DNA of 46,058 nt from the IMG/VR virus record IMGVR_UViG_3300001533_000950, positions 1 to 46,058 of that record; one strand, 5' to 3'. The first letter of the stretch is position 1. Each line of letters opens with the position of its first letter. The notes under the pieces are model-generated. The model was not told the DNA's origin, made no database searches, and was given only the letters and a program-made list of their open reading frames with translations. Shown here piece after piece: positions 2,427 to 44,839 of this stretch. The DNA comes from a virus. Position numbers and translations under genes: made by a program.

Positions 2427-2468
2427 GTCAACCATGATGTTGACGTCAAGTCTCCCCCGTGCGACAAT
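2427..2468 (+). promoter_or_regulatory. promoter and operator dyads of the XRE regulator
   Basis: A sigma70-like promoter can be read as TTGACG (2440-2445), 17 bases, GACAAT (2463-2468), followed 26 bases later by the start codon at 2494. Over and beside the -35 box are two dyads: GTCAAC-N6-GTTGAC (2427-2444) and the perfect palindrome TTGACGTCAA (2440-2449). Overlap of a dyad with the -35 box is the usual layout of an autorepressor site. The same half-site GTCAAC/GTTGAC recurs in two dyads at 44788-44838. Confidence 0.5.
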
Positions 2469-2493
2469 CCAAGTGGATGGCAGAAAGGGCATC

Positions 2494-2793
2494 ATGAATC
2501 TCACTTGGGAGACAAGAAAAAGGGCTGCAACTAGGATCAAGGCATGCAGGGAGGCGGCTGAATTGACAGTTGATAAATTGGCGAAAATCACAGGCGCATC
2601 CCGCGCTACTCTGTACGGATTGGAAGCAAACCTGGGTAATTCGAGAACGCAGTATCCTAGTGCTGTACTGCTACTTACCCTTGCAAATGTGTACAATGTG
2701 TCTCCGATGTGGCTAAGTGGATTGGAGGCTGACGATGTCAAATCCGATGCGGAGACAGTGAAGCGGGAAGTGGCTCTGTGGAGGAAAGGATAA
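2494..2793 (+). CDS. XRE-family HTH transcriptional regulator
   Basis: 99 aa. An open frame extends further upstream, but the ATG at 2494 has AGAAAGGG at proper spacing, and the candidate promoter at 2440-2468 would lie inside any longer version. The HTH is typical: a charged first helix (RAATRIKACREAAEL), then LTVDKLAKITGASRATLYGLE as scaffold and recognition helices, then a third part on residence in a list of 'places' (VLLLTLANVYNVSPMWLSGLE), as in Cro/C1-type proteins. It probably represses its own promoter and may control the late operon through the matching dyads near 44.8 kb. The gene is lower in GC than its neighbours. Confidence 0.85.
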   Translation: MNLTWETRKRAATRIKACREAAELTVDKLAKITGASRATLYGLEANLGNSRTQYPSAVLLLTLANVYNVSPMWLSGLEADDVKSDAETVKREVALWRKG

Positions 2794-2799
2794 TATTCG

Positions 2800-3309
2800 A
2801 TGCCATCTGGAGTTCTCAAGGGTGAGTATCATCACGCATCGTTTGTGCCGCAGTCGATCAACTTTCCAGGACGGATCAACGGATTGCGATACACAGCGGA
2901 GAAATCACAAGGCAGGGGTTGGCTCAACTTGCAACTTGCGACGGAAGCTCAAGCTCGAAATTGGAAGCTAGATATACGAGTGCATCGTGAACAGATCATA
3001 AGGCGAAAGAATCAGGAATCGGCGCGCAGGTATGGGCCAGGTGCAGCACGGACCAAGGACTGGAGCATTCCGCCGGCAAAGTGGGGATGGTGTCACAAGC
3101 ACAGATGCTCACTTGAGTATTCATCATCACTCGGTTGTAACGTGCATGGATATCTTTACGATTGCGAGCGATGTAGAGACGAACAGATAGAGTTCGGGGG
3201 GCTAATGAGAATTGTTTGGCTATGGTACATGGGCAGAATACCGCTTCCTCCGGACCTTGAAAAATTGGGAGAAGAATGGGTACGTCAGTTAGCGGAGAGA
3301 GCGAAGTAA
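2800..3309 (+). CDS. hypothetical protein with Cys/His cluster
   Basis: 169 aa, ATG 6 bases after the regulator stop with AAAGGA upstream, so it shares that operon. The N-terminal 90 residues are basic with no recognised fold. From about 99 there is a metal-site-like run (WCHKHRC, then GCNVHGY, then DCERCRDEQ), that is CxxxxC...C.V.H....C..C, compatible with a small zinc-binding module. The C-terminus is helical and aromatic (MRIVWLWYMGRIPLPPDLEKLG). Function is unknown; a partner of the regulator or a nucleic-acid binding protein is possible. Confidence 0.6.
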   Translation: MPSGVLKGEYHHASFVPQSINFPGRINGLRYTAEKSQGRGWLNLQLATEAQARNWKLDIRVHREQIIRRKNQESARRYGPGAARTKDWSIPPAKWGWCHKHRCSLEYSSSLGCNVHGYLYDCERCRDEQIEFGGLMRIVWLWYMGRIPLPPDLEKLGEEWVRQLAERAK

Positions 3310-3312
3310 CAG

Positions 3313-3453
3313 ATGCGTAATGGATGCTCCGGCAACGGCTCCGGCTTAGGCTACGGCTACGGCTCCGGCTTATGCTACGGCTACGGCTCCGGCTTAGGCT
3401 ACGGCTCCGGCTTAGGCTACGGCAGCCAACCGGAGGTTGCGCGCAACGACTAG
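3313..3453 (+). CDS. Gly/Tyr/Ser-rich mini-protein ending in RND
   Basis: 46 aa, ATG only 3 bases after the preceding stop, so likely translated by coupling. After MRNGC comes a run of GSGLGYG / GYGSGLCYG units, then a short tail SQPEVARND. The repeat DNA is a 12-15 bp GGCTACGGCTCCGGCTTA unit. The C-terminal RND and the GGC-NNN repeat are shared with the truncated gene at 1-183, which suggests two related mini-genes. The Arg/Leu-rich frame over the same DNA is rejected. I recognise no function; the repeat makes copy-number change easy. Confidence 0.5.
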   Translation: MRNGCSGNGSGLGYGYGSGLCYGYGSGLGYGSGLGYGSQPEVARND

Positions 3454-3642
3454 GCTACGTCCCGCTGGGACAAGAAAGGAGACCACCCCGCCCGCGTCCG
3501 GTCAGTGGACGAGTACACCAGCGCCGAACAGCCGGCCGTCGAACCGGTGGCGCGAGTAGAGTACGAGGCTACGGGCAGGCTCTCGCGGTCATTGCAGGCT
3601 TGTGAGCACGGCCGCGGGCGGGGGGCGGACTTTACAGACTAG
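3454..3642 (+). other. open continuation of the Gly-rich ORF after its amber stop
   Basis: The frame of the 3313-3453 ORF stays open after TAG for 62 codons, to TAG at 3640-3642. The translation looks protein-like (for example VDEYTSAEQPAVEPVARVEY near the middle). There is a GTG at 3505 but no good ribosome site; AAAGGAG at 3474-3480 lies about 25 bases from it. It may be the remnant of a gene whose 5' end was replaced by the Gly repeat, a weak GTG-started ORF, or a readthrough product. The stretch holds nothing else I can support. Confidence 0.25.
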
Positions 3643-3669
3643 ACGGGTCTAACTAGGGAGGGGAGTGAG

Positions 3670-4011
3670 ATGACAGCAAAAGCTACTATTGGCGGACTAT
3701 TGTTGGTTTGGGATCCGATCATTGAACGATGGTTATTGGACTCCGATTTGGTGTTGGGGGCTACCGATGTGCGCACATTCCCAGAGACGCAGGACGACTG
3801 GACCCCGGTCAACGGGCTGAGCGAGATCCCGGAGGAGTTCAAGGACGGGCGGAGTGTGGAGGTGACTTTCTCGAACAAGGTGCGAGTGATCCAACACTCT
3901 CCCAGCACGACCTATTGGAAGTATTCAGGTGTCGGAGGTCGGTTTTCGCCGTATGACGGCAGACACGTCACCGCCTACCGAATCCCGAAGCCGTACAAGG
4001 GAGGGGAGTGA
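3670..4011 (+). CDS. hypothetical protein
   Basis: 113 aa, ATG with GGGAGGGGAGTGAG upstream. It is a beta-rich looking sequence (GGLLLVWDPIIERWLL; SVEVTFSNKVRVIQH; TYWKYSGVGGRFSPY) with a basic-Gly tail KPYKGGE. No family is recognised. Its last bases supply the ribosome site and the TGA-G-ATG junction of the next gene, so the two are coupled. Confidence 0.6.
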   Translation: MTAKATIGGLLLVWDPIIERWLLDSDLVLGATDVRTFPETQDDWTPVNGLSEIPEEFKDGRSVEVTFSNKVRVIQHSPSTTYWKYSGVGGRFSPYDGRHVTAYRIPKPYKGGE

Positions 4012-4012
4012 G

Positions 4013-4183
4013 ATGTCTGATTATGAGTGGATTGCTCGTGGCACGTGCGTGCTAGACAGGACCGGTCGGCAAATCATGATGGTTGTACCGACGAACGCGA
4101 CCATGAAGCAGGCGGCAATGGCAGCACGTCTGATCGCCGAGGACCACAATGCGGCCATGGCCGACGGGGAGGAGGAGGGATGA
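4013..4183 (+). CDS. hypothetical small protein
   Basis: 56 aa, starting one base after the previous stop with GGGAGGGGAGTGAG upstream. The sequence begins MSDYEWIARGTCVLD and has a helix MKQAAMAARLIAEDHNAAM, then an acidic-Gly tail DGEEEG. The N-terminal half, followed by 'A.LIAEDHN', resembles short phage proteins of unknown role that look like half of a two-strand-helix fold. Its stop overlaps the next ATG (ATGA). Confidence 0.6.
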   Translation: MSDYEWIARGTCVLDRTGRQIMMVVPTNATMKQAAMAARLIAEDHNAAMADGEEEG

Positions 4184-4797
4184 CCCCGCAACCCGGCGAC
4201 GTAATCAACACCACCGGCATCGCCCCGTTCGGACTCTCGTGGCACAAGCTCTCGCGCTGGACCGTCACGCAAGGCATCCACGCCTACCAGCGATGGCTGC
4301 GAGGCTACCCGCATCCGGCGTGGACGAGGACTCACACGCGGCTGTGTATCGACCGGGATCTTATCATGTCCGTCACGGACCCGGTGTGCAAGTGGGAGAC
4401 GTGGGCTGAGGTCGAGGCCATGTACCCACCAGAGAACATCAAGATCATGCGGCCGAAGTTCCACGACTACAGCATAGACGGCGATGCGCACCTGTTATGC
4501 GCTGCCGCGAACCTGATCGGCCGCAAGTACGATCGCGGTCAGCTGGTGGACATCATGCTGAACCGGCTGCTTGGGATCCCTGACGGCGAGTTCACACGCA
4601 TCTTCGATGCCGGGACCGCTCGCACCGTGTGCTCAGGCGGCGTGGCTGCGTGCTTCGAGTATCACCGGCTGTCCCTGCCCGAGCATCTGCGCTGGCCGCG
4701 TCTGTTCGGCGGGATGTACATCGAGCGTGTGCCGCCGGCTGCATTTGAGGCGCTGCCGCGTGGGGCTGAGTGGGAGATGGAGTTTGAGCATGTCTGA
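4180..4797 (+). CDS. permuted papain-fold (YiiX / NlpC-P60-like) hydrolase, putative
   Basis: 205 aa, ATG overlapping the previous stop with GGAGGAGGG upstream. Features fitting a permuted NlpC/P60-like cysteine hydrolase: PGDVI near the N-terminus (residues 5-9), a conserved-looking THTRLCID (51-58), a helix with LIGRKYD (112-118), and the nucleophile-type motif TVCSGGVAACFE (149-160), where C151 would be the Cys. Such enzymes cut peptides, amides or acyl groups. Substrate is unknown. The present C-terminus (EWEMEFEHV) may be altered: a 20-bp repeat of this end recurs at 5511-5530 after the next gene and continues in phase as EEVR-stop, as if the original 3' end had been displaced by an insertion. 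Confidence 0.5.
   Translation: MTPQPGDVINTTGIAPFGLSWHKLSRWTVTQGIHAYQRWLRGYPHPAWTRTHTRLCIDRDLIMSVTDPVCKWETWAEVEAMYPPENIKIMRPKFHDYSIDGDAHLLCAAANLIGRKYDRGQLVDIMLNRLLGIPDGEFTRIFDAGTARTVCSGGVAACFEYHRLSLPEHLRWPRLFGGMYIERVPPAAFEALPRGAEWEMEFEHV
4769..4788 (+). repeat. left copy of 20-bp direct repeat flanking the PP-loop gene
   Basis: AGTGGGAGATGGAGTTTGAG, identical to 5511-5530. It lies at the very 3' end of the hydrolase gene, just before the ATG of the PAPS-reductase-like gene. Confidence 0.9.
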
Positions 4798-5512
4798 TAG
4801 ACTCATTGTTAGCGTGTCTGGCGGCGCGGACAGCACGGCCATCGCTTTGCTGCTGCATGAGCGCGGCGAAGACTTTGAGCTTCTGTTTGCTGACACTGGG
4901 GCAGAGTTGCCAGAGGTCTACTGGTTCTTGCCAAGGCTGGCGCAGTACGTCGGCAAGCCGCTCCACGTGGTCAGCGACGGTGGATTCTACAAGTTCTTGT
5001 CTGGATACGGATACTTGTTGCCTGGGAATCGGTGCCGCTGGTGTACCCGCGTGCTCAAGATGATCCCGCTCGATTTCTGGATGGCCGCTGAAAAGATCCA
5101 GCGCGTTGCAGTCGGTATACGTGCCGACGAGCCCAAGCGGCAACGTCAACCAGAGCGGAGGGCCGGAGAGCACGAGACGACTTGGCCACTAGTAGACGCC
5201 GGAATGGGAAAGTCAGACGTGAAGGCATTGTGCGCAAAGCACGACATGCTAATCCCGGTATATGAGTGGCGCACGAATGTGAGTTGTTTCTGCTGCCCGT
5301 TCCAGCGCAAGGCTGACTGGCGTGGGCTTCTGAAGCATCATCCTAATTTGTATGCCGTCGCCGAGGAGTGGGAGCGCCAGAGCATTCGGACCACCGAGAA
5401 AGGCTTCACATGGTCGCATTGGCCGTTGGATAAGTTGCGCACTGCAACCAAAGCGCAGATAGACATGTGGCCGGAGCAAGAAGAGCAGCCTTGTTTGATC
5501 TGTACGGCCTAG
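4790..5512 (+). CDS. PAPS reductase / PP-loop adenine nucleotide alpha-hydrolase family protein
   Basis: 240 aa, overlapping the end of the previous gene by 8 bases. The PP-loop motif SGGADS is at residues 10-15, in the expected place after the first strand (LIVSVS). Then follow LLFADTGAELPEVY (31-44), typical of phosphoadenosine phosphosulfate reductase-like proteins, a CRWC pair (82-85) and a CFCC cluster (166-169). The four-Cys pattern suggests an iron-sulfur centre, as in DndC-like and other phage members. The reaction cannot be fixed: sulfate activation chemistry, tRNA or DNA thiolation and a reductase are all open. No other Dnd gene is present. The gene sits exactly between two 20-bp direct repeats, so it looks like an inserted extra gene. 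Confidence 0.85.
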   Translation: MSDRLIVSVSGGADSTAIALLLHERGEDFELLFADTGAELPEVYWFLPRLAQYVGKPLHVVSDGGFYKFLSGYGYLLPGNRCRWCTRVLKMIPLDFWMAAEKIQRVAVGIRADEPKRQRQPERRAGEHETTWPLVDAGMGKSDVKALCAKHDMLIPVYEWRTNVSCFCCPFQRKADWRGLLKHHPNLYAVAEEWERQSIRTTEKGFTWSHWPLDKLRTATKAQIDMWPEQEEQPCLICTA

Positions 5513-5530
5513 TGGGAGATGGAGTTTGAG
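5511..5530 (+). repeat. right copy of 20-bp direct repeat flanking the PP-loop gene
   Basis: AGTGGGAGATGGAGTTTGAG again, 742 bp from the left copy. In the frame matching the hydrolase gene it continues EEVR and TGA at 5538-5540, a plausible former C-terminus. The rest of the gap to 5581 holds only a poor 16-codon GTG frame. Confidence 0.9.
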
Positions 5531-5581
5531 GAGGTACGGTGAACAATCAAGGATTACTTGACGGTTCCTGGGAGGGAAACA

Positions 5582-5800
5582 ATGACTGAGTACGAGGTCC
5601 GGGCTGTGTCCTACATAATCGCACCGAAGGGCGCAGGCCTACATGACGAGAGGGCGACGCTCATCGAGCTGTCAGACGAGGGCGCTGGTGAGTTCGTCGA
5701 AGTGACGCAAGCCGGCGGAGGCATCCGCTTCGACAAGGACGAGTGGCCCGGTATCGTGCAGCTTATCGAGGCGATGATGAAGAGCGTCCGGGACGACTAG
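5582..5800 (+). CDS. hypothetical small protein
   Basis: 72 aa. ATG at 5582 has GGGAGGG five bases upstream; a TTG at 5558 in the same frame has no ribosome site. It is an acidic mixed alpha/beta sequence: strand (EYEVRAVSYIIAP), strand (ERATLIELSDEG), Gly-rich turn (QAGGGIRFDKDEW) and a closing helix (IVQLIEAMMKSV). No family is recognised. Confidence 0.65.
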   Translation: MTEYEVRAVSYIIAPKGAGLHDERATLIELSDEGAGEFVEVTQAGGGIRFDKDEWPGIVQLIEAMMKSVRDD

Positions 5801-6590
5801 GGGAAGGAAAGGTAGACTTGACTGTTCAACCGGAGGAGGACGCATGACCACCAACGGGCCACAAACGGGCCACATCGACCGGGGCGAGTGGACAGGAGAG
5901 GAGGGACCATGCTCAGAGTAGGAAGCTGGAGGGCACATCAAGCCCGGTGCGACCGTGCTGCGCAACTTCGGCCTGGAGGCGTGCTATCGAGGCGTGTACT
6001 GGGAGCCAGACCGATCGTGGTGCGAGTACGTGGACTCGGTGGACGGCTGGCTGCGCGATGAGAGCGGCCGTCTCGTGCAGACAACCAGCGGCAAGTCCGT
6101 ATGGGATCACAAGGTGGTCGATGGCGGCAGGATTGCGCGGATCATGTTCAAGTCACTACGCGAGACTCCGTGGTGCCACGGCGTCATGCTGGAGATGCTA
6201 TCACGGCGGTGCATCATGCCGCAGTGGGTAGTGGGCCGTGGCTGGGGCGGAGCGAGCGTACACTGGGATCGGTTCTTCGATGAGGTCATGTCAGTTATCA
6301 AGGTGCGCAACAGATCGAAGAAATGGATCATCACGCTGAACGGGCGGCATGGCGCGTTCGTGCGGCCCGATGACCTTGAGTACGCAACGTTCAACAAGCT
6401 CGAAGGCGCGATGGTGCGGCCGGAGTTCCCGGACCTTGTGGACTCGCATGACATGTCCGGCGGCGCGTACATCACTCGCTGGGACTACTGGATCGAGAGA
6501 ATGCAAGCGCACCCGTCGATCCTGGAGGGGTTCGCGCAGCCCGAGTGGGGCTCGGACGTGGTCGATCAATACACGCGGTTCCATGCCGCT

Positions 6591-6630
6591 CTCTGCACGA
6601 TGTTCGATGCCTCTGCACGATGTTCGATGC
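6591..6630 (+). repeat. 20-bp perfect tandem duplication causing a frameshift
   Basis: CTCTGCACGATGTTCGATGC twice in a row. Twenty is not a multiple of three, so the downstream frame moves, and the two halves of the ORF match only if one copy is removed. Confidence 0.95.
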
Positions 6631-6724
6631 GATCTGCATCCGGCACATGGACGCACCCGGACACTGGGAGCGGATGAACGGGTGGCACCCGGTCTACGAC
6701 ACGCTCCAGGCACTCGGCGAGCCG

Positions 6725-6772
6725 ACGATCCCAGCGCGGAGAAAGAACACGATCCCAGCGCGGAGAAAGAAC
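6725..6772 (+). repeat. 24-bp perfect tandem duplication, in phase
   Basis: Two adjacent identical 24-bp units (6725-6748 and 6749-6772) coding TIPARRKN twice. They lie 95 bp after the frameshifting duplication. Confidence 0.95.
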
Positions 6773-6876
6773 GAAGTCTGGTGGCGTGAGTTCCAGGGCG
6801 GGCGGCTGATGCTCAACCCGGCCCGGTACGCTGTCCAGGTTGCGGGCGTGACTGTGCCTGCGATGGACTTCGTGAC

Positions 6877-7545
6877 TTAAGGTGGAAGATCTGAAGGATC
6901 TTCTACTTCAATGTCATAGTCGTAGGGCGCTGTTGCCTTGGGTTCGATCTTTCGTTTGGTCTTGCGCCGAGAAGAGATAGAACGTTCAGCCTTTTCGCTT
7001 ACGTTCTTGACCTTCTCGGCTTCAGACACAAGAAGATTGAACGTGTTTTGATTGACGTTCAGCCCTCCAGGGACAACCCCATCTGGAAGGCGATCTTCTG
7101 GAGGATTGAGCACAAGGTTCTCATTCATTGGCTTGATCCAATCATGAGACACCTTGAGGAGTTTTATCAGGGTTGTTGTTGAGGTTTCAGCTAGGATTTC
7201 GGGGTCAGATAGCCGGCGCTCGATCTCTTTCAGAACAACATCAATGATTCCGTAGTATTTGTTGGCGTAGACTGCGAGGTTCTTTGCGACGCCAGACATC
7301 AGGATGATAGCGATGCGGCGCCTTTCCCGACGCAATGTTGCTGAGATCTTGTCAGCAGGAGCGTCGAGCACCTTTGCGATCTTGTCAACGGACGAGCCTT
7401 CTGCGACGAGAGCGCCTATCTGTTTCAGTAGGTCTTCGTCTACAAATTGCTCATTCATTGGTGCGATGTTTTGTTTATTCGGCAGATCGCCGCCGGCAAC
7501 GAGCAGAGACAAGACATCGTTTGATAGATGATTATTTTCTCTCAT
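6877..7545 (-). CDS. HTH protein, putative small terminase subunit
   Basis: 222 aa from the ATG at 7545. The open frame reaches 7728, but that part lies over the oppositely oriented helicase gene. The ribosome site is weak, so the start is uncertain. Near residues 35-70 an HTH-like segment is seen (EDLLKQIGALVAEGSSVDK, then IAKVLDAPADKISATLRRE). A long helical part follows (KNLAVYANKYYGIIDVVLKE, LSDPEILAETSTTTLIKLL) and then a basic tail (SSRRKTKRKIEP). HTH, then oligomerising helices and a variable tail is how small terminase subunits are built. The large subunit is encoded at 15592, on the other strand. A DNA-binding regulator is the alternative. Its stop overlaps that of the broken gene on the plus strand. 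Confidence 0.45.
   Translation of the reverse strand: MRENNHLSNDVLSLLVAGGDLPNKQNIAPMNEQFVDEDLLKQIGALVAEGSSVDKIAKVLDAPADKISATLRRERRRIAIILMSGVAKNLAVYANKYYGIIDVVLKEIERRLSDPEILAETSTTTLIKLLKVSHDWIKPMNENLVLNPPEDRLPDGVVPGGLNVNQNTFNLLVSEAEKVKNVSEKAERSISSRRKTKRKIEPKATAPYDYDIEVEDPSDLPP
6882..6912 (+). terminator. hairpin at the convergent gene ends, possible terminator
   Basis: GTGGAAGATC (6882-6891), loop TGAAG, GATCTTCTAC (6897-6906): a 10-bp stem with one G-U pair, two bases after the plus-strand stop. The T tract is weak. It lies inside the last codons of the minus-strand gene that ends at 6877, so it could serve plus-strand transcripts only. Confidence 0.35.
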
Positions 7546-7575
7546 AGGATGATCGTAACACATGGAGAAACAGGC

Positions 7576-9264
7576 ATGAAACTCATTCTTGACCAAGCGA
7601 GGCGCAGAGCTATAGCAGAGAGGTGCAACGAAACTTACATGCTGCGCTCTTGGCTGCGAGACGTCCATGGATGCAAGTTCAAGGGAGGGTATTGGGAGTT
7701 CCCCCTCGATCTTGACATCCTGAATCACATTTCAACCTCAATAAAGCACTACGGCGCCGAAGTGACGATGACTCCTGAAATGGCGCAATGGTACAAAAAA
7801 GAAACAGAAGCCCGGACAATTCTTGAGCAGGCCAGAAACGGCGGAATCGAAGCTAAGATGCATGTCGAATGGAAACACAAGCCATTCCCTCATCAGGTTG
7901 ACGGAGTTGAATGGCTCATCGCTTCTGACTGGTGTATGTTGCTAGACGATATGGGGTTAGGGAAAACGGCACAAGCTATTACTGCTGCTAATAACCTGGA
8001 AAAGAGATCCGTAATCGTGGTGGCGTGTCCGAACACGGTCAAGGAAGTGTGGGCCGAAGAGATAGCCAAGTTTTCAACGGTTCCGGCGATGGTCCTTGTT
8101 CCGAAAGGTCCAACGAAGATTCGCAAAGAATCAATCCTTCACGTAGTCGAAAAAGCCAACGAATACGACGGCAATAGATGGATTATCGTAAACTATGAGA
8201 GTCTCAGGTTCTTCTCGGATGCGTTTCTCAAGGCGACAGATGGCGCAATCCTCATTTGCGACGAAGCTCACAGGCTCAAAAACGCAAGAGCCAAAGTGAC
8301 TAAAATCGTCGAAGCCAGCACGCCAAGAAAGCTCTGGTTGCTAACAGGAACACCTATTGCGAACCGAGCGGAAGACCTGTGGAGCCTCATGAACATCGTG
8401 CGGCCGGGCTTGGCTGGGTTCTACTGGTACGATTTCGAGCGTAACTACATCATTCGCAACAAGTTCGGAGGTATTAGCCGGTATCAGAATCTTGGGTTTC
8501 TTGCCGACAAGCTCTCCAGAGTGAGCCTTGGGCGCAAGAAAGAAAACTGCATCGACTTGCCAGACAAGCTATTCGAGAAAAGGATAGTGGAGCTATCTCC
8601 TACAGAGAAGAAGACTTACAAGCGAATGAAGGATAGCATGCGTACCTGGCTTGAAGATGACGTATCAGAACCTCCCACGATTTCGCAAACGGCAGAGTTC
8701 ACTACTCGATTCATCAGGCTTCGGCAGATTACTGATGGACTGGTGAGCGAGGGCGGGGATGGACAAAAAAGCTGGTCGAAGGAATTGACGAAGATCTCAG
8801 AAGCGATCCAAGCGTGGGAAGATTCCGGCCGGCGCCGCTGCGTCATGTGGTTCCAGTACGTCGATGTTCTCAAAAAGGCAGCTGAGATGCTCAGGCGCGC
8901 CCAGGTGGGCCTAATTCACGGGGGTGTGACCACTGCATCTCGGAAAGAGGAGATCGTGCAGTGGGCGGCACGTGACGAGTCCATTCTCCTATGTCAGATG
9001 GACACCGCTGGCGTCGGGCTGAACCTACAAGCCGGAGACCTTCAAATCTTTGTCGATCTACCATTGACACCTATGCAACGGCACCAGTGCATAGATAGAT
9101 TACACCGAATCGGGCAACAAAATAGTGTCACGATCGTTGACATAATTGCAAAAGAAACGGTCGATGAAAAGATACTAGCAACGCTGGCCAAAAAGATCGA
9201 CATTGCGAATTATGTAGAGAGCAAAAGTTACGGCTTGAATGCCATGAAGGATATGGTAAAATAG
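7576..9264 (+). CDS. SNF2/SWI2-family superfamily II helicase
   Basis: 562 aa. ATG 7576 with GGAGAAA upstream is preferred to in-frame starts at 7528 and 7549, which have no site. All main motifs are visible: Q/entry PHQVDGVEWL (105-114), Walker A DDMGLGKT (124-131), DEAH (229-232), TGTP (257-260), and late motifs DTAGVGLNLQAGD, then HQCIDRLHRIGQ near 507-518. The first 95 residues resemble the HARP/substrate-recognition lead seen in SMARCAL1-like proteins (GCKFKGGYWEFPLD). Phage members are usually placed with replication and recombination genes and may remodel forks. It begins the plus-strand nuclease operon and stands back to back with the small-terminase-like gene, about 30 bp apart. Confidence 0.92.
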   Translation: MKLILDQARRRAIAERCNETYMLRSWLRDVHGCKFKGGYWEFPLDLDILNHISTSIKHYGAEVTMTPEMAQWYKKETEARTILEQARNGGIEAKMHVEWKHKPFPHQVDGVEWLIASDWCMLLDDMGLGKTAQAITAANNLEKRSVIVVACPNTVKEVWAEEIAKFSTVPAMVLVPKGPTKIRKESILHVVEKANEYDGNRWIIVNYESLRFFSDAFLKATDGAILICDEAHRLKNARAKVTKIVEASTPRKLWLLTGTPIANRAEDLWSLMNIVRPGLAGFYWYDFERNYIIRNKFGGISRYQNLGFLADKLSRVSLGRKKENCIDLPDKLFEKRIVELSPTEKKTYKRMKDSMRTWLEDDVSEPPTISQTAEFTTRFIRLRQITDGLVSEGGDGQKSWSKELTKISEAIQAWEDSGRRRCVMWFQYVDVLKKAAEMLRRAQVGLIHGGVTTASRKEEIVQWAARDESILLCQMDTAGVGLNLQAGDLQIFVDLPLTPMQRHQCIDRLHRIGQQNSVTIVDIIAKETVDEKILATLAKKIDIANYVESKSYGLNAMKDMVK

Positions 9265-9285
9265 GCCACAGAAAGGAGGGCAAAA

Positions 9286-12528: not shown

Positions 12529-12529
12529 A

Positions 12530-15409: not shown

Positions 15410-15591
15410 GCATCGTCGTGCCACCGAAAATCACAGGTGGGAACTGATGTTGATATTGCCATGCGCGAGAATAATCGTCAACACCAAAAACCAGAAACCC
15501 CACCCCTTTGCAGGGCAGGGCTCCTGGCGGATGACGCATCGAGTGTGAATGGAGTAATGACTCCCAACGATCCGTATTGTATGATCCAGGC

Positions 15592-17130
15592 ATGAGTTCG
15601 TCAATCAAAAATCCAGCCGTGAAGAGAGCTGTCCTAGAAAAGCTTTTCCCCGCAGCATTTTACAGCCCCAACAAGCCAGCGCCGCCAGAATGGATTGTCG
15701 AGCAAGGCGGCATGCCGGGCAGCCAATCTACTGGAGACGTGGCCTGGTTTGAATCTGATTCCCAATTGAGGGTCAGCGTAGGAGGCAACCGGGCAGCGAA
15801 AACGACGAAACTGGTGCTGGAAGCTGGGTCTTTCTGTCTCGGCAGGCGCCCATGGTACCCAGAGAGCAATGAGTGGGCCACCCGTGGACTGAAGAGCAAC
15901 TCCATGCAAAGAACCGGCCGGCCGGCCCGGTGCCGGTACGTTCTGCCAAGCTTCAAGGTACACTTGCCAGAGGTGGTCAACGAGTTCTCCAAGTGGTGGC
16001 CGGACAGCATGTACCGAGTGACCCGCAAGGATGAGCACGGTAGTCCGAGCGAGTTTACGTGGTTCAACGGCGCCAAGATCATGTTCATGTCACACCACAT
16101 GAGCAAGAGAGACGTAGAAGGTATCGAAGGGGATCTGAACGTATGGGACGAACCGCCGCCAAGGGACTTCTGGACGGGCTTGGAGCGAGGCATGGTTTCT
16201 ACTGGGGGCAGAACGATTGTTGGATGCACCCTCCTGGATGCGTCAGGTTGGTTCTGGGAAGAGATCATCAACGGCGAGAACGAAGATTCCACAGTGACCT
16301 GGCATTCGATCTGGGACAACACCCGTGAGAACGGGGGGTGCCACGACCAAACGTGCGAAAACGTCAGAATATGGCTGAAGAAGATCACGGATCCCGATGA
16401 ACGCCTGGCGCGTGAGCATGGATTTCCCATGCACGTAGGCGGACTTGTCCTGAAGGGACTCTCCTCGAAGAACATCATTGATGCGTTCGAATTGCCGCCG
16501 GATTCAATCATCGTCTCAGCGATCGACCCGGCAGGCAGCCGACCGTTTGCCGCGATCCATATCGCCTACCTAGAGCGAGACGGTTCCTGGATGGGCCACA
16601 TCTTCGACGAAACCTACCTGCCTCAATCAAAGAACGACCTCGGCGCCTTCTGCGAAATGTTCGTAGCCAAAGAAAAAGGAGAAATGGACCCGTATCATCC
16701 GTTTGAATCAGTGCTTACGTTGATAGATCCGTTCTCGAATGAACCACAAAAAGCTGACGCCATGGGTAGGACCATGAAGGACATCATCGAGGAAGATTAC
16801 AAGATCACCACTGTGGATGCTGATCGCAAGAACAAGAGGGCTCGGCTCATGCGATTGAACTCCAGGTTCGTCGATAAGAAATACATGGTATGGCGCAACT
16901 GCTCCAGGTTCATAGCAGAAGCGAAACGCTGGACATGGAACTCTGAATCAGCCAAGCTTACAAAGGGACCGGACGATCTGTGTGACTGCGTAAGTTACAT
17001 CGACCATTCTGACCCTCCCTCGACATTGATGGCCTATGCTGACGGAGAAGGCCGTGATGGCGTCTGGACACCTCCTGAATACCGGGAGCGTGAGAAACGA
17101 AGCGGCAGAAGCGAAATCCTCTATGCGTAA
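15592..17130 (+). CDS. terL: large terminase subunit
   Basis: 512 aa. ATG 15592 chosen; a TTG at 15577 is the other option and neither has a strong site. ATPase motifs: Walker A-like GGNRAAKT (64-71, the GGxRxGKT form common in terminases), Walker B LNVWDEPP (182-189) and a coupling region TGGRTIVGCTLLD (204-216). Nuclease domain: first Asp in SAIDPAG (309-315), then LTLIDPFS, and a third acidic site in DDLCDCVSYIDH near the C-terminus. It pumps DNA into the prohead through the portal. Unusually it is on the opposite strand and far from the portal (42034-44358). Its end overlaps the RusA gene by 8 bases. Confidence 0.92.
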   Translation: MSSSIKNPAVKRAVLEKLFPAAFYSPNKPAPPEWIVEQGGMPGSQSTGDVAWFESDSQLRVSVGGNRAAKTTKLVLEAGSFCLGRRPWYPESNEWATRGLKSNSMQRTGRPARCRYVLPSFKVHLPEVVNEFSKWWPDSMYRVTRKDEHGSPSEFTWFNGAKIMFMSHHMSKRDVEGIEGDLNVWDEPPPRDFWTGLERGMVSTGGRTIVGCTLLDASGWFWEEIINGENEDSTVTWHSIWDNTRENGGCHDQTCENVRIWLKKITDPDERLAREHGFPMHVGGLVLKGLSSKNIIDAFELPPDSIIVSAIDPAGSRPFAAIHIAYLERDGSWMGHIFDETYLPQSKNDLGAFCEMFVAKEKGEMDPYHPFESVLTLIDPFSNEPQKADAMGRTMKDIIEEDYKITTVDADRKNKRARLMRLNSRFVDKKYMVWRNCSRFIAEAKRWTWNSESAKLTKGPDDLCDCVSYIDHSDPPSTLMAYADGEGRDGVWTPPEYREREKRSGRSEILYA

Positions 17131-18308: not shown

Positions 18309-18734
18309 CTATTCTCCAGGCGTTCGAATCCCATCTAGTTGCTTCATGAAATCGTAATCTTTGTCACTGGCGAATCTGAACCAGCCATCCTTGGATAGCT
18401 CCACGGTCGCAATGGCATCATCATGCCTCATAACAATAAACATATCTTCACCGATCTTGACTCGTTCGCCATGGTATCTCGCAAATACGATGTCCTCTCC
18501 TTCTGCAAAAGGAACCGGCTTACGAAGCACAACAGCTTCGTCATCATCGTGAATCACGTCAATGACTCTACCTTTGCCGACTTTGAATACCTGAGCGAAG
18601 AAAACTTCTTCAAGGGCAGTATCTGGAATGATGATGTTCTGCCCTTCTTTGTATTTGCCAGTGCTAAGATATGCACGGCAAACCATTGATCCATCTAAAG
18701 GCTTGATCGTAGATCCTGGCGGAAGTGTCAACAT
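18309..18734 (-). CDS. GroES (Cpn10)-like co-chaperonin
   Basis: 141 aa, ATG with GTAGGAGGA upstream. The Cpn10 layout is clear: IKPLDGSMVCRAYL (10-23) for the first barrel strand, a mobile-loop-like STGKYKEGQNIIIPDTA (24-40), FFAQVFKVGKGRV (45-57, the 'G.V.avG.G' strand), PFAEGEDIVFARYHGERVKI (75-94, 'vk.GD.Vlf.kyaG..v') and MFIVMRHDDAIATV (98-111). It is longer than the usual 95-100 aa, with about 30 extra C-terminal residues. As with T4 gp31, it could recruit host GroEL to fold phage proteins. It sits in the late operon between the giant ejection protein and the lysis genes. Confidence 0.85.
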   Translation of the reverse strand: MLTLPPGSTIKPLDGSMVCRAYLSTGKYKEGQNIIIPDTALEEVFFAQVFKVGKGRVIDVIHDDDEAVVLRKPVPFAEGEDIVFARYHGERVKIGEDMFIVMRHDDAIATVELSKDGWFRFASDKDYDFMKQLDGIRTPGE

Positions 18735-37981: not shown

Positions 37982-38018
37982 ACATCCTCCACGGGGTTTG
38001 GTTTTGAGTTCCTACGTG

Positions 38019-38516: not shown

Positions 38517-38534
38517 TGTCAGCCACCTCCTCCC

Positions 38535-39440
38535 TTATGCGCCAGTGGACCCATAGATCGCCCTCGGATCCGAAGCCCCAAAGGAGCAGATGAAAAGAAC
38601 CTTCGTCTTCGCGGTGTGCGAATCGAAGTGGAAACCGTGGCTGGTCTGCGGCTTCGCATTCCAGTACCAATTGATCTCCGTGTTCTTCTTGTCACCAAGA
38701 ATCCACCACGCCGTCGAAGACGACAGGAACGGCCAGATCACAGGTGCCACCTTGCCGAAGACGTAGGACTTGGCGTGAGTGGTTGTATCATGCCGCATGG
38801 GAGACTGAAGAAGCTCATGCAACATCGGAGCCAGGTCCGGCTTGCAAAGGATCTTCGAGGGATTCTGCGGCTGCGGAAGCCCCTGAAGATCCTTCTGGTT
38901 CATGAACGCAACCAAAGCCGTCTCCAGCGCCGTATGCCCCAGAGCTGCCGTGGTCTTGTTCGAAAACTCGCCGGCGCCACGAACGTACTTGTGGTCCGTA
39001 TCACACACGTACTCCCCGTCAGCCGTGGTGTACGTAGCAAAGGTTCCGTCGAAGAACGAAGCTCCAAGCGTCTCCAGCGACATCCGCAGAGACCTCTTCA
39101 AGTGAGTGGCGTACTTCTTCGAGAACCCATCAAGGTCCTGCTGGGCGGCCATCCAACCAATCTGATACCCAAGCCCATACTGGACATGGGTATATGACTT
39201 GTATGGCCCCTGAACCATGTTGTCGTAGTTGACGGAGCCATTCTCGATCATGTCTTCGAACAAACCAAGCCCCGCAAACGTAGGAATCTGTTCCGTCATA
39301 CGCTTACTCGACTTGACATTGAAAAGAGATGACCAAATCAGAGACGGATCCTTCCATCTCTCAGGTCCAATGTAATCGTCGATGTAGGGAATACGATTGG
39401 CGTACGCCCTATGAAACGTTTCCCTGGTGAACATTGCCAT
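38535..39440 (-). CDS. major capsid protein, Mu T-like
   Basis: 301 aa, ATG with GAGGAAATGAG upstream. HK97-type capsid proteins of the Mu gpT kind have a 'TDHKY..G.G..SN' element, an E-loop and a P-domain helix; here CDTDHKYVRGAGEFSN (about 146-161) and the upstream LKRSLRMSLETLGASFFDGT fit. YKSYTHVQYGLGYQIGWMAA is like the N-arm/E-loop strand, and the C-terminal KTKVLFICSFGASDPRAIYG the last strand. Order scaffold - two small proteins - capsid is standard. The length of about 300 aa is normal. Confidence 0.75.
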   Translation of the reverse strand: MAMFTRETFHRAYANRIPYIDDYIGPERWKDPSLIWSSLFNVKSSKRMTEQIPTFAGLGLFEDMIENGSVNYDNMVQGPYKSYTHVQYGLGYQIGWMAAQQDLDGFSKKYATHLKRSLRMSLETLGASFFDGTFATYTTADGEYVCDTDHKYVRGAGEFSNKTTAALGHTALETALVAFMNQKDLQGLPQPQNPSKILCKPDLAPMLHELLQSPMRHDTTTHAKSYVFGKVAPVIWPFLSSSTAWWILGDKKNTEINWYWNAKPQTSHGFHFDSHTAKTKVLFICSFGASDPRAIYGSTGA

Positions 39441-39480
39441 TTCTCATTTCCTCCTATCTATGTCAAAACGTGAGCTTCAA

Positions 39481-40026
39481 CTAAGCCCAGGTGTTCTGGT
39501 ACGTCAAATTGACTCCGTAGGGGTTGAACTCAACGAGCAGATCGACATTCGTATTGGCCCACTCGTTGCCGATCTCGCCCGACTTCCCAACGATGCGAAG
39601 CGGGTACGCATCCATCGTATTCGTTCGTCCGGCGCTCGTCACCGAAACCTCGCACGTGGACAACCCTGAATCCGTCGAACCGCCACCGTTTCCAGTGACC
39701 TTGACGTTCATATTCAGCATCGTAGCTTCCGTGGTCGCCTTCGACCCGTCACTCTGACACTTGAACACGTGGTCGTGAGGCCAGAAATTGATCCTCGTGC
39801 GCGTCGTGGCCGACCCAGCATAGTATTGAGCGCACACACCAATTACGTCTGCCGGAGTTTCCGCCGCTCCAGCCTTCGCGTATCCAGACGCTGAATAGGT
39901 CAAGATCTGACCCACATACAGACTGGTCGAATACTTAGAAGCCAACGGAGCAGACCTCACATACGGAGCCCCGCCGTCCTTGCGATGAACAGGGACAAGT
40001 CCCCTTCGAAAATCGACGTTAGCCAT
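39481..40026 (-). CDS. putative head decoration / stabilisation protein
   Basis: 181 aa. ANVDFRRGLVPVHRKDGGAP at the start, LYVGQILTYSASGYAKAG, then VIGVCAQYYAGSA (the 'iGV...y......' strand of decoration barrel proteins), INFWPHDHVFKCQSDGS, and a closing DLLVEFNPYGVNLTYQNTWA. This 'G-v-l....g.v......d..iGv' arrangement precedes the major capsid gene in many Mu-like and podovirus heads. Overlaps the preceding gene by 8 bases. Confidence 0.55.
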   Translation of the reverse strand: MANVDFRRGLVPVHRKDGGAPYVRSAPLASKYSTSLYVGQILTYSASGYAKAGAAETPADVIGVCAQYYAGSATTRTRINFWPHDHVFKCQSDGSKATTEATMLNMNVKVTGNGGGSTDSGLSTCEVSVTSAGRTNTMDAYPLRIVGKSGEIGNEWANTNVDLLVEFNPYGVNLTYQNTWA

Positions 40027-40825
40027 CTTCGTTCTCCTCCTCTATCTCGGTTGGGACATAGCCTTCATATCCCTTCGGTCCCGAGAGCCTCATGTCCTGT
40101 ACGTGACCACCCGCGCTGGCAGCAATGACATCCCGCTCGTCATCAAACCCACTAACGTTGATGTCACCAAACGCCATCGTATCTTCCCCGCCCGACGACT
40201 TCCCGGCTATGGCCTGCGCTTGAATGCGGTATGTCTCCTCATGCTTGCGCATCCGCCTGGTAATGTCGTACCTCTCTGCCAACATCTTATCCCGAGAATC
40301 CACGATTCGCCTCGGTGCAATCTTGACAATCGCATCGTGACCAACCTTCAGGTATCCCTGCTCCGTCCATCGACCGGCCGGAACCACAATCCCTAACTCC
40401 TCGGCCCGATCCTTCGTCAACGGTTCGTAAATCTGCGCATCAAACGTGGGAAGGATTGGATTGCGTTGCTCACGATACTCCGAATCGAAGAAAACGTGAA
40501 CATGACGTTTCGTCTCTTCGGGAGCGGACCAATCCAGAGGATTCCGCTCGAAGAAGTCTCGCGGCACCGTTTCTGACAATCCCTGAGCACTGATACGATC
40601 TTCCGCCCACCTGGCCGCTTTGGTCTCTGCGCGGAACTTTGTCCTGCGCTTGGTCGGGACGCTTTCCTCTTCGACAACCCTGTGAGCTTCCCTGATCTTA
40701 TCTTTCTCGGTCCTGCGTTCACGAGCATCACGACTGCGCTCCTTCGCTTCGCATTCTTTTTCCACGCGCTCCCGCCTGGAAGCGATCGCCTTGGCCTTTT
40801 CCGCAATGTTGTCAAACTCTGCCAT
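40019..40825 (-). CDS. hypothetical virion-module protein, charged N-terminus
   Basis: 268 aa, ATG with GGGGAGGTGATGG upstream. Residues 1-80 are very basic/acidic helix (AEKAKAIASRRERVEKECEA; RERRTEKDKIREAHRVVEEE), which could be a disordered scaffold-like or DNA-contact part. Then comes a folded middle (HVHVFFDSEYREQRN, YLKVGHDAIVKIAPRRIVDS) and an acidic tail (TEIEEENEDG). Lies between scaffold and decoration genes. No family recognised. Confidence 0.5.
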   Translation of the reverse strand: MAEFDNIAEKAKAIASRRERVEKECEAKERSRDARERRTEKDKIREAHRVVEEESVPTKRRTKFRAETKAARWAEDRISAQGLSETVPRDFFERNPLDWSAPEETKRHVHVFFDSEYREQRNPILPTFDAQIYEPLTKDRAEELGIVVPAGRWTEQGYLKVGHDAIVKIAPRRIVDSRDKMLAERYDITRRMRKHEETYRIQAQAIAGKSSGGEDTMAFGDINVSGFDDERDVIAASAGGHVQDMRLSGPKGYEGYVPTEIEEENEDG

Positions 40826-40842
40826 GGTCCATCACCTCCCCT

Positions 40843-41739
40843 TTAGTTTTGAATCCTGTTCTGCGCAATGTAATTCTCCGATGCCGATGCTTTTCGTGCC
40901 AGGATCCTCTTGCGCGTGTCTTCGTCGTCAATGTCAATTTCCCATTCCTTGGCGATATCCCTGTCTTCGTCGGTGATTTCCTGTTCGCTGCGAGAGAAGC
41001 TTCTCCCACCACCCACGAGCTGAGAAAGCCTCTGGCGAGCTTCCTCCAAAGCGGCTTCACGAGTCGCCTGTCGGCTACTGTGAATCTTAGCCGCAACCGA
41101 CGGGTTTCCGGCAGCCGCAATCGCAAAAGACAACTTGTCGTGCAGATCCGTGCCCACAACATCCTTGTCGAGCAAGCCGGCAATGTCGCGCTTCACCTGC
41201 GCCGCACTGCGAATCAGCTCGCTGTCACCCTTCCCTAGCTCTTCGTTATAGTGCGACAACACATTCTCGGACAAGTGCTTCCCGAGACTGGAAAGCGACA
41301 TCTTTTTCTCAAGCTTCTGCTCGAACGCAGCAAGCCTCTTGTCGGAAAGACTCTCAAAATCCTTCTCAAGAAGCTTCCCAAGAAGTTCGGGACTATGCTT
41401 GATGGCAAACTCCATCGCTGCGCGCTTGTCTTCCTCGCTCTGCTTCGTACTTTCCGGCACCTGGGGTGACGCTATGGCCGGAGCTGATGGCCTGTTCATG
41501 ACACCAGACAAAAGATTCATGACCTGAGACGTTTCGGCCTTCTGGCCTGCCATGGATGCCTTCATCTCCTCGATCGCTTGCTTCAGAACTGCGATCTCAT
41601 CTGCCGATCCGCCCGCAGCAGAAGACTCCTTGCGAACCGGCTCAGCATCTTCTTCGCCTTCGGGCTCCTCGCCACCACCTTCGAACAAAGCCTCGATCTC
41701 ATCAGGCATCAGACCTTCAAATCCGCTTTCAGTGTCCAT
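40843..41739 (-). CDS. putative scaffold protein
   Basis: 298 aa. Very acidic, low-complexity N-terminus (FEGLMPDEIEALFEGGGEEP) and then helical, charged body (ADEIAVLKQAIEEMKASMAG; AAFEQKLEKKMSLSSLGKHL), closing with a basic tail (DTRKRILARKASASENYIAQ). This is the usual shape of head scaffold proteins, and the gene lies two genes after the portal and before the capsid. The start overlaps the end of the small gene upstream by 11 bases. Confidence 0.65.
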   Translation of the reverse strand: MDTESGFEGLMPDEIEALFEGGGEEPEGEEDAEPVRKESSAAGGSADEIAVLKQAIEEMKASMAGQKAETSQVMNLLSGVMNRPSAPAIASPQVPESTKQSEEDKRAAMEFAIKHSPELLGKLLEKDFESLSDKRLAAFEQKLEKKMSLSSLGKHLSENVLSHYNEELGKGDSELIRSAAQVKRDIAGLLDKDVVGTDLHDKLSFAIAAAGNPSVAAKIHSSRQATREAALEEARQRLSQLVGGGRSFSRSEQEITDEDRDIAKEWEIDIDDEDTRKRILARKASASENYIAQNRIQN

Positions 41740-42037
41740 CGGGGTTCCCTTCCTGCATGTTTTCGTCAGTGCCTGCGTAATTCGGCACCTTGCCTTCCTT
41801 CAGGGTCTTGAGCAGTTCGAACCTCAAACGCTCAACCGTCCTGAAGCCCTCTATCATGCCAGCCGACTTGCAATGGTTCATCGCCACTTCGTCGGCAGAA
41901 GTCCCGATGGGGAAATCGTACATGTTGTCCTTTAGGTTCTCTTGCAACGCCAAAAAATGCCTCCAGAAAATCCCGAAACCCACAGACCCATACGCCTGCT
42001 CAACCTCCGCCGCCATCCTCTTTGCTATTTCGCTCAT
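41729..42037 (-). CDS. hypothetical small protein between portal and scaffold
   Basis: 102 aa; ATG overlaps the portal stop (ATGA). Mostly helical (EIAKRMAAEVEQAYGSVGFG; MIEGFRTVERLRFELLKTLK). Proteins of similar length and helix content follow portal genes in several podoviruses. No function recognised. Confidence 0.55.
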   Translation of the reverse strand: MSEIAKRMAAEVEQAYGSVGFGIFWRHFLALQENLKDNMYDFPIGTSADEVAMNHCKSAGMIEGFRTVERLRFELLKTLKEGKVPNYAGTDENMQEGNPDGH

Positions 42038-44358
42038 TGCATCAACCCCTGATCCATGGAAGTCTCCACCGGTCCCGATACCGGCTCCATACCGCCCATC
42101 TGTGACTGCGTTACCATCTGCTGTCCACCCTGTCCACCCTGTCCGCCCTGCCCACCCTGCATCTGCGCCTGTGCCATCACCGACATCATCTGCTGATGAA
42201 CCTGCGCATGCTGAGACAACAACCTGACCTCACTCGGCCTGTCAAATACCGTCGCCATACGAGATGAATCCTGCATCAATTCGGCAATGACCGAAAGATG
42301 CTCTACGTGATCGTCACTCATCAATGGCTCGATGTAGATCCCCCGAGCCATTACCATGTTCTCGTCCTCCTGGCTCATCGGCGCCCGGTCCTCGCCTGAA
42401 GGAGGTGGCAAAATCTTCGAAGCGTTCTTCATCCCCGTAGCCTCTAAGAAATCTACCGTGAAATGCCACAACGCCTGAGGATTCTGCTGAATCAATGGAT
42501 TGCCCAGCGCATTCTGATACCTGACCAGTGCATTCTGCATCCTGAGCTGCGGATTGTTCACGTCCTCACCCAAATCAATCGAGAAATCGAACCTTCCCTG
42601 CAACGACCCTCGATCAATCTCCTGCAACCCACCCGTCCTGGTCCGTACCGTCTTGGATAACGGCATGTATGCAGAATACAAACTCATGTACTGCATAAGT
42701 ATCTCGCGTACGCCACCACCGCCCGACGGCATCCCACCCGTCATCAACCTCCGAAGTATCACGTCTGTGCGTAATTGCTGCTGACGCACAACCAGCGCAG
42801 TTCCGCCGAGAGTGCGCGGTGCGTTCGGACGAGTTGGACCCCGACCCAAACCCATGTCCGTCGAACCTATCGCCCTCTCGGCTTGAGTCTCTATCCCACT
42901 CTGCTCACGCCATAAATGAGAAGGATCCGTGGGAAACATGAATGGGTAAAAAGCGTCCTTCGGGTTCCGTGCCCTCACCAATGTTCCCGGCATGATCCTC
43001 AATGTGTCCGGCGCCAACCCAGACAACGGAGCATACATCCCACTCGGCTTCGATATGATCTCGATCGCGTCCCCACGTGCCCAATAAAATGCGTTCTCCT
43101 CCCTCTGCATCCCCTCCAATATCTCCGGAATCCCCATCCCGTAATACCTGTGCGTCACAGGAAGAAAATGCCAGTCCGCAAACGGCCGACGCCCATGCTG
43201 CCACAAATACTCAAGCCTGTGACGACAAAGCAAAACCTTCTTGCCTACATCTACCACCGCTCGCACAATCGACTCGTCGTACCCGTCACCATCTACGTCC
43301 TCAAACCTGTACTCCCACAACACCGCCACTTCACCCGACCGCGACTCCACTACGCTCTTCCCGAAATCCTCGTCCCTAGCCGAATCAACTACGTCCTCCT
43401 CCTCTGCCCCCGACCCGTACCCACCTCGCTTGATGCAGTAATCCTTCACCTTCTCCAAATCAGACTTCGAACACTGAAATAACCCATACCGCGCCCGCTT
43501 GGCTATCTCGTCGTAACTCATCCACTCCAACATCCAAAACTCACGAGCCGTCTGAAGATCCTTCGCGCTCGGAGGTACGAACATGTACTCCGGCCGCACA
43601 AGATTCAATGTCGGCGCGTCATACACCACATGATCGCGCTCAACCAGTACAATCGGCTCACTCGGACGAAATGGATGATTGTTCTCTACGTACGCCCGCC
43701 CCTCATGCTCGTACCCATCCTCGTCCTCAAACACAACCCTGTACTTCCCACCCTTCGACCGCTCCGGTACCTTCTCCAATAACCGCTCACCTAATGCCAA
43801 TGTCACCAAATCAGAATCCGCCGGACCCTTCACGCCATCACGCTTGGCCTCCTTGATCGCTTTCAATACGTCAGAAGGTAAGTATGCCTCCTTCAAAATC
43901 TTGCGAACATCATGACGCCACGCAATGTGTGAATACGCACTGCCAAACAAACACCCATCGTGAGTAAACGCATCAATGTGCGCTACCGCATTCGACTCAT
44001 TCTCCAGTGAATTGCGCATGAGCCATGTCCAGGTCTCCGCACGCTCGTTCATCACCCGCTCCGCTACACCCTCCAACGATGCGGGACTGACTTTGAAAAA
44101 ATCGAGACTCTGGAAAAAACTGCACAGAACCGAGTGAACGTCCTCAACCTTCGAAAATGTCAACGGCGGATTGAACTCCGTCGCGTGCTGCCACGGCTTG
44201 TTCAGCCGGCCTAACACCATCCTCCACTGACGATCCCACGTGACTAACCGACTCGTCCACTCCGCGTGCCCTGCCGATGTCTTGAACTCGTACCACCGCT
44301 CATAACACTCAAATGCCTCACGCTCCTGAGGCGATGAAAAGCCCTTGCGATCCGACAC
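42034..44358 (-). CDS. portal protein, P22-type large
   Basis: 774 aa, GTG start 9 bases after GGGAGG; size agrees with P22-like portals (about 700 aa). Blocks: REAFECYERWYEFKTSAGHA at the N-terminus, FLHDG-type FTHDGCLFGSAYSHIAWRHD, DAPTLNLVRPEYMFVPPSAK (the 'd.....d.f.DP' portal element), FADWHFLPVTHRYYGMGIPE, EILEGMQREENAFYWARGDA, and LRIMPGTLVRARNPKDAFYP (stem and crown region). The C-terminal 100 residues are Met/Gln/Gly-rich (short GGQGGQGGQGG run), probably flexible barrel-tip. It forms the dodecameric DNA gate of the head. Second gene of the late operon. Confidence 0.85.
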   Translation of the reverse strand: MSDRKGFSSPQEREAFECYERWYEFKTSAGHAEWTSRLVTWDRQWRMVLGRLNKPWQHATEFNPPLTFSKVEDVHSVLCSFFQSLDFFKVSPASLEGVAERVMNERAETWTWLMRNSLENESNAVAHIDAFTHDGCLFGSAYSHIAWRHDVRKILKEAYLPSDVLKAIKEAKRDGVKGPADSDLVTLALGERLLEKVPERSKGGKYRVVFEDEDGYEHEGRAYVENNHPFRPSEPIVLVERDHVVYDAPTLNLVRPEYMFVPPSAKDLQTAREFWMLEWMSYDEIAKRARYGLFQCSKSDLEKVKDYCIKRGGYGSGAEEEDVVDSARDEDFGKSVVESRSGEVAVLWEYRFEDVDGDGYDESIVRAVVDVGKKVLLCRHRLEYLWQHGRRPFADWHFLPVTHRYYGMGIPEILEGMQREENAFYWARGDAIEIISKPSGMYAPLSGLAPDTLRIMPGTLVRARNPKDAFYPFMFPTDPSHLWREQSGIETQAERAIGSTDMGLGRGPTRPNAPRTLGGTALVVRQQQLRTDVILRRLMTGGMPSGGGGVREILMQYMSLYSAYMPLSKTVRTRTGGLQEIDRGSLQGRFDFSIDLGEDVNNPQLRMQNALVRYQNALGNPLIQQNPQALWHFTVDFLEATGMKNASKILPPPSGEDRAPMSQEDENMVMARGIYIEPLMSDDHVEHLSVIAELMQDSSRMATVFDRPSEVRLLSQHAQVHQQMMSVMAQAQMQGGQGGQGGQGGQQMVTQSQMGGMEPVSGPVETSMDQGLMQ

Positions 44359-44379
44359 CTTCCATCACCTCCCATTCTC

Positions 44380-44751
44380 TCAATACCCGTACACCTCTGC
44401 CCATACCGTCGCGTCTACCGAAGACTGATTCGAAATCCGCATCATCGTCACATTCGTCAAACCACCTACCACAAACCCGCCAGCCGGTATGTCCCACCCT
44501 ACACCCTGCGTAGACGTTCCACCAGCCGCAAACCTTACCTTCACGTGCTGGTCCGCCTCTATCCGCACCGCCCGCGCCGCTGCCGATGTCCCTAACCCAC
44601 CCAAAGAAATCACCGTGTCCGCCGACCCACCTAGCAACACTACATGCCCTACACCCTCCGTGATCTCCTCGTCCGATACCACACTGTTCCAGTCTCTCCG
44701 GTCGCCACCATCTACCACCGAAAGCTGACCCGAATAGCTTACCCTGGCCAT
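44380..44751 (-). CDS. small beta-rich protein, first gene of the late operon
   Basis: 123 aa, ATG with GGGAGGTTGAGCG upstream. Beta-rich, Gly/Val/Ser/Ala: HVVLLGGSADTVISLGGLGT, QHVKVRFAAGGTSTQGVGWD, FVVGGLTNVTMMRISNQSSV. The pattern 'WdIPAgg..v......m.i.N.s..d..v' is common in small phage virion proteins of the spike or decoration type. An overlapping Gly-rich frame (44318-44758) is not supported by a ribosome site. It stands just before the portal and about 35 bases from an operator-like dyad. Confidence 0.55.
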   Translation of the reverse strand: MARVSYSGQLSVVDGGDRRDWNSVVSDEEITEGVGHVVLLGGSADTVISLGGLGTSAAARAVRIEADQHVKVRFAAGGTSTQGVGWDIPAGGFVVGGLTNVTMMRISNQSSVDATVWAEVYGY

Positions 44752-44786
44752 CGCTCAACCTCCCTCAAACCAGAACACCCAGTACC

Positions 44787-44839
44787 TGTCAACCACCAGT
44801 TGACACCGCCTTCCATGAACTGTCAACTCCAACTTGACA
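44787..44839. promoter_or_regulatory. two operator-like dyads upstream of the late operon
   Basis: TGTCAACCACCAGTTGACA (44787-44805) and TGTCAACTCCAACTTGACA (44821-44839). Both are TGTCAA-N7-TTGACA with start points 34 bp apart; the first is the perfect GTCAAC-N5-GTTGAC. The same half-sites with N6 occur at the promoter of the XRE gene (2427-2444). They lie 36-88 bp before the first late start codon on the minus strand, a good place for a repressor or activator. Confidence 0.6.

Follow-up and report, generated by a model that had tools for sequence, protein, structure and literature searches.

The operators of the repressors of mycobacteriophages L5 and L1 are stoperators of the sequence GGTGG(A/C)TGTCAAG (PMC1934351). 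They are asymmetric and numerous, one of them overlaps an early promoter, and one repressor serves several places in the genome (PMC1934351). The stoperators contain TGTCAAG, but their asymmetry sets them apart from the dyads of the phage analyzed here, IMGVR_UViG_3300001533_000950. This metagenomic IMG/VR virus contig of 46,058 bases is classed as linear, and its whole length is called the window below. An L5-type arrangement with many copies of GGTGGMTGTCAAG was rejected, as 23 matches with up to three mismatches were found in the window versus 23.4 expected.

The divergent CI/Cro operator regions of temperate phages also come close. When IMG/VR was scanned for a tandem TGTCAA-N7-TTGACA pair, 25 contigs were found, 19 of which have an adjacent helix-turn-helix (HTH) gene. 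In nine contigs (L138, L140, L143, L146-L149, L151, and L154), the pair lies between a CI-like XRE repressor and a Cro-like HTH gene; for L138, Pfam confirms both HTH families and a neighboring integrase. The pair adjoins another HTH gene in six contigs, an HTH gene of the SW..QAA type in three, and an HTH-like gene in one (L155). The contig ends beside the pair in L139, and no HTH gene was seen near the pair in L012-L015 and L141. The arrays of L012-L015 consist of three tandem dyads with GTCAAC arms, whose spacers alternate N5, N4, N5; in L014, they are located between the end of an apparent terminase gene and the portal gene. The nine CI/Cro regions share with our phage the tandem TGTCAA-N7-TTGACA dyads including −35 hexamers, as well as an XRE-family HTH protein. 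Their pairs lie between two HTH genes with a period of 47 bp, whereas the pair in the window precedes a late operon with a period of 34 bp, and neither a Cro-like partner nor an integrase was found. Nor were the features of a lambda-type CI/Cro switch found in the record: every gene near 2494 is on the + strand, so that no divergent repressor and Cro genes flank the dyad, and neither a second HTH_3 protein nor an integrase or other lysogeny module was detected.

The XRE gene and its dyad

Rightward early genes extend from ~0.26 to 12.5 kb and encode, among others, an SNF2 helicase, a PAPS reductase-like protein, and a PD-(D/E)XK nuclease. A D5-type primase/helicase comes after them on the opposite strand, and 15,577-17,130 codes for a protein similar to large terminases. 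The late block runs leftward from 44,751 to 17,515; its products are a small protein, the portal, the capsid, structural proteins of the virion, and an endolysin. The early-region protein at 263-907 matches PF09652 (Cas_VVA1548, putative CRISPR-associated; 2.8e-18), and a late-block protein (18309-18734) weakly matches a GroES-like co-chaperonin family (1.5e-5). Low-complexity repeats of the GGCTACGGCTCC type occupy 1-180 near the left end and 3324-3456, and those of the GCGCCGAGGGAG type occupy 45800-46058 at the right end. The first-pass annotation had remarked on the absence of an integrase, and this was borne out: the profiles PF00589, PF07508, and PF00239 detected no tyrosine integrase, serine recombinase, or resolvase in the record, which is possibly incomplete. 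The features around the XRE gene are as follows.

2316..2350, + strand: terminator-like hairpin GGGGTGGCGA...TCGCCACCCC, parting the gene at 2106-2309 from the XRE unit
2403..2431, − strand: leftward sigma-70-like promoter TTGACT-17-TATGAT (consensus scan, 10/12)
2427..2444, unstranded: XRE-side dyad GTCAAC-CATGAT-GTTGAC (N6), from the sequence and a dyad scan
2440..2468, + strand: sigma-70-like promoter TTGACG-17-GACAAT (consensus scan, 9/12; TG precedes the −10 box)
2494..2793, + strand: XRE (Cro/CI-type) HTH regulator of 99 aa, counted from the preferred start

The XRE protein matches Pfam HTH_3 (2.2e-6) and HTH_31 (2.1e-6) and the transcriptional regulators of PHROG 8 (7.6e-9). Its HTH_3 score of 28.1 bits (27.3 bits in the record-wide scan) passes the curated cut-off of 23, and no other HTH_3 match occurs in the record. 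The structure model (mean pLDDT, 54) was too uncertain for use. The recognition helix carries SRATLY, which resembles GRAAIS of the L138-type XRE repressors; the likeness is weak because Arg is common at that position. The RNA of the upstream hairpin (2310-2356) folds with −28.1 kcal/mol (z = −5.7). The −35 box of the rightward XRE promoter falls within the right arm of the dyad, which runs on into the palindrome TTGACGTCAA (2440-2449), and that of the leftward promoter overlaps the left arm.

An alternative in-frame start, ATGATG at 2434, lies inside the dyad behind GGAG (2424-2427). If it were used, the dyad could fold around the start codon as a hairpin whose stem includes the Shine-Dalgarno sequence and whose loop contains the start codon. 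The dyad at 2427 would then work as RNA in translational control rather than as an operator, and the late dyads would be unrelated. The hairpin (−8.6 kcal/mol; z = −2.35) and the GGAG-N6-ATG spacing fit this explanation, whereas a longer RNA (2413-2500) folds no better than shuffled sequences (z = −0.63). The start at 2494 is preferred because it gives an N-terminal HTH, the arrangement of the L138-type XRE repressors, and RNA-level control is considered improbable.

The extended XRE-side pattern, GTCAAC-N6-GTTGACGTCAA, was found in 16 contigs, mostly inside ORFs, and none of 17 neighboring proteins has an HTH domain; it was thus rejected as a recurrent XRE operator. The independent support for the XRE-side dyad as a possible operator is weaker than that for the late-side pair. 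Searches for close relatives used the portal, XRE, and D5 primase proteins against IMG/VR and XRE against the GTDB genomes. These collections yielded distant portal and primase relatives only, with no XRE homolog and no close phage relative. MW202601 and MW202524, the nearest portal relatives with annotation, are without such dyads, and the promoter dyads inspected in MW202601 differ from those of the window. BirA- and TnrA-like boxes have spacings other than those of the window dyads.

The tandem pair before the late operon

The late side comprises the following features.

42034..44358, − strand: portal protein, late-block gene 2 (PHROG 1216 portal, 8e-29)
44380..44751, − strand: late-block gene 1, 123 aa (ORF list and translation)
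44764..44826, − strand: two candidate leftward promoters (relaxed consensus scan, 9/12 each)
44779..44846, unstranded: 34-bp tandem direct repeat, copies 44779-44812 and 44813-44846, 74% identical
44787..44805, unstranded: late dyad 1, TGTCAAC-CACCA-GTTGACA, lying ~36 bp before the late gene start
44821..44839, unstranded: late dyad 2, TGTCAAC-TCCAA-CTTGACA, 34 bp from late dyad 1

Late-block gene 1 belongs to no family that PHROG and Pfam searches could match. The 34-bp tandem repeat, located by a repeat search, carries both dyads; its copies agree at 13 of the 14 positions in the dyad arms and at 12 of the 20 remaining positions (p = 0.037). With their flanks, the sites are better described as TGTCAA-N7-TTGACA (19 bp) than as GTCAAC-N5-GTTGAC, and the window holds two exact matches and one 1-mismatch match to the longer form, versus 0.11 expected. 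A dyad arm forms the perfect −35 box TTGACA of each candidate late promoter (44826-44821 and 44792-44787). The −10 boxes (TCAACT and TTTGAG) are poor, and neither candidate passes the standard consensus scan.

The adjoining region at 44850-45700 is non-coding and AT-rich, with about ten TGTCGATT/AATCGACA half-sites arranged in inverted pairs and a perfect hairpin with 13-bp arms at 45348-45378 (z = −6.6). The cumulative GC skew has its minimum near the record end. This region is possibly a replication origin or a divergent control region. An exact 18-bp repeat, CTGCGTACACCTGTACAC, occurs in it at 44906-44923 and 44963-44980, and each copy holds the palindrome TACANNTGTA, which is found nowhere else in the window. 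TACANNTGTA is the core of the CopY/CopR operator (PMC7253601), and this match is probably a coincidence.

Tandem dyads of the late-side type are also found in cellular genomes. A scan of GTDB genomes yielded at least 120 stretches, mostly from Streptomyces and other Actinobacteria, and in 107 of those listed an SW..QAA HTH gene lies no more than 600 bp away. These proteins contain the helix-turn-helix SWxxIGxxLGxSRQAAQQRF and, in Streptomyces, often a Clp_N domain. Their genes lie beside tandem TGTCAAS-N5-STTGACA dyads (L016-L135), and the family is probably autoregulated, judging from this arrangement. In the literature, no name was found for the motif or its SW..QAA family. From base counts, well under one tandem pair would be expected by chance in the IMG/VR or the GTDB collection. 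The two surveys show that tandem TGTCAA-N7-TTGACA pairs are a widespread type of predicted operator, tied to several HTH families.

The late side of our phage has the same 19-bp dyad in tandem (TGTCAAS-N5-STTGACA at 44787-44805 and 44821-44839), with a period of 34 bp instead of 27-29 bp. A host regulator of the actinobacterial SW..QAA type might therefore read the late pair and place the phage late promoter under a host factor; the frequent SW..QAA neighbors in GTDB and the three viral contigs with such a gene beside their dyads favor this. However, the period is 27-29 bp in 114 of the at least 120 stretches listed and never 34, and a six-frame search of the window gave no SW..QAA protein (best E, 0.42). 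Host control of this kind thus seems hardly probable. Pairs of this type are repeatedly found next to HTH genes elsewhere, and the late-side pair is therefore very probably a real HTH-type operator pair.

Likeness of the two sites

The first-pass annotation had pointed to one dyad shared by the XRE promoter and the late operon, and its three members were all found: GTCAAC-N6-GTTGAC at 2427-2444, GTCAAC-N5-GTTGAC at 44788-44804, and GTCAAC-N5-CTTGAC at 44822-44838. Their sameness holds for the 6-bp arms only, since the XRE-side dyad is without the outer T/A and has one extra spacer base. The stated distance of 42 kb likewise applies to the record in linear form; in a circular or permuted genome, the sites would be about 3.7 kb apart across the ends.

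Scanning the window with GTCAAC-N{4,8}-GTTGAC gave two matches versus 0.01 expected, and none of 100 shuffles reached two. The dyad at 44822-44838 has one mismatch, and a lone 1-mismatch dyad is not unusual (0.85 expected). Equally good dyads do not abound elsewhere, as the annotation had allowed they might: no further match with zero or one mismatch was found, and those with two mismatches number 11 versus 12.5 expected. The choice of motif was post hoc, so the frequency with which any two widely separated inverted repeats have an equal arm was also determined. The window contains 117 inverted repeats with 6-bp arms and spacings of 3-9. Distant same-arm pairs average 1.2 in whole-window shuffles, and three were observed; when segments of intergenic DNA only were shuffled, a distant same-arm dyad pair appeared in 0.7% of the shuffles. 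From these two values, the coincidence of the dyads is unusual but not overwhelmingly so. Each dyad could be a short palindrome of the ordinary sort within promoter DNA; the abundance of 6-bp inverted repeats and the same-arm pairs expected in whole-window shuffles speak for this. The intergenic result, the 34-bp tandem repetition with conserved arms, and the recurrence of the pair type beside HTH genes make such chance likeness very unlikely.

At both places, one half of each dyad doubles as a −35 hexamer, TTGAC. This raises the chance of likeness between two promoter palindromes and could explain part of the resemblance. Two regulators may accordingly be considered: XRE would autoregulate at 2427, the late pair would be the operator of another phage protein with an unrecognized fold, and the likeness would stem from both operators overlapping the −35 hexamer TTGAC(A). 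The coincidence of −35-like hexamers with dyad arms at both places, the different spacers and flanks, and the missing HTH association of the extended XRE-side pattern elsewhere agree with this arrangement. On the other side, the shared 6-bp arms exceed the shuffles, and XRE is the only HTH_3 protein found, with no other regulator recognized among the scanned proteins of the record. Two separate regulators are unlikely on this evidence, and they rank directly after a single XRE protein acting at both places.

A possible single regulator for early and late sites

The best single explanation, favored tentatively and somewhat short of an even chance, is that the XRE protein acts on both the 2427 and the 44.8-kb sites, as the annotation had suggested. 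Binding of both places by the phage's regulator is plausible. The suggestion gains from the company that the late pair keeps: this class stands beside HTH genes in the viral contigs and the genome stretches surveyed, including nine contigs with an XRE-family phage repressor, and XRE is the sole HTH_3 protein of the window. The two exact dyads, the same-arm intergenic pair, and the conserved tandem arms are in its favor, as are the strong hairpin that isolates the XRE unit and the promoter-like −35 box inside the dyad. It is weakened by the N6 versus N5 spacers, which put the half-site register off by one base pair, by the missing outer T and HTH association (0/17) on the XRE side, and by the double role of half of each dyad as a −35 hexamer. 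The tandem pair adjoins its HTH gene in most other genomes but not in this phage, the late side is without a good −10 box, and no XRE homolog or close phage relative was found. The alternation of N5, N4, and N5 within the L012-L015 arrays means that a 1-bp change in spacing alone is no refutation.

Here, we propose how a single XRE protein might operate. A dimeric HTH protein would use the 44.8-kb sites as a tandem pair of operators, lying over the −35 boxes of a leftward late promoter region, and the 2427 dyad would be an operator covering the −35 box in front of the XRE gene. Both places would most likely be bound by the XRE protein that the phage itself encodes. Produced early, XRE would occupy its own −35 box, resulting in autorepression, and on the pair before the portal operon it would hold back late transcription. 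This hold may end once the XRE level falls or another factor displaces XRE. What the analysis shows are the sequences, their positions and statistics, and the link of the late-side pair type to HTH genes elsewhere; any binding of the dyads, XRE as the ligand at each, and the repressive sign are inferred.

It is possible, although on balance doubtful, that in a phage without a detectable integrase an early XRE protein directly represses both its own gene and, through a tandem pair, a distant structural operon. If so, the phage would have an early-to-late timing switch without a recognized late sigma factor, antiterminator, or phage RNA polymerase. Tandem TGTCAA-N7-TTGACA pairs, being widespread and tied to HTH genes, can serve in the prediction of regulatory targets, both for metagenomic phages and for actinobacteria. 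For this poorly known phage group, in which no late activator is recognized, direct repression by XRE would provide a testable mechanism of late-gene timing.
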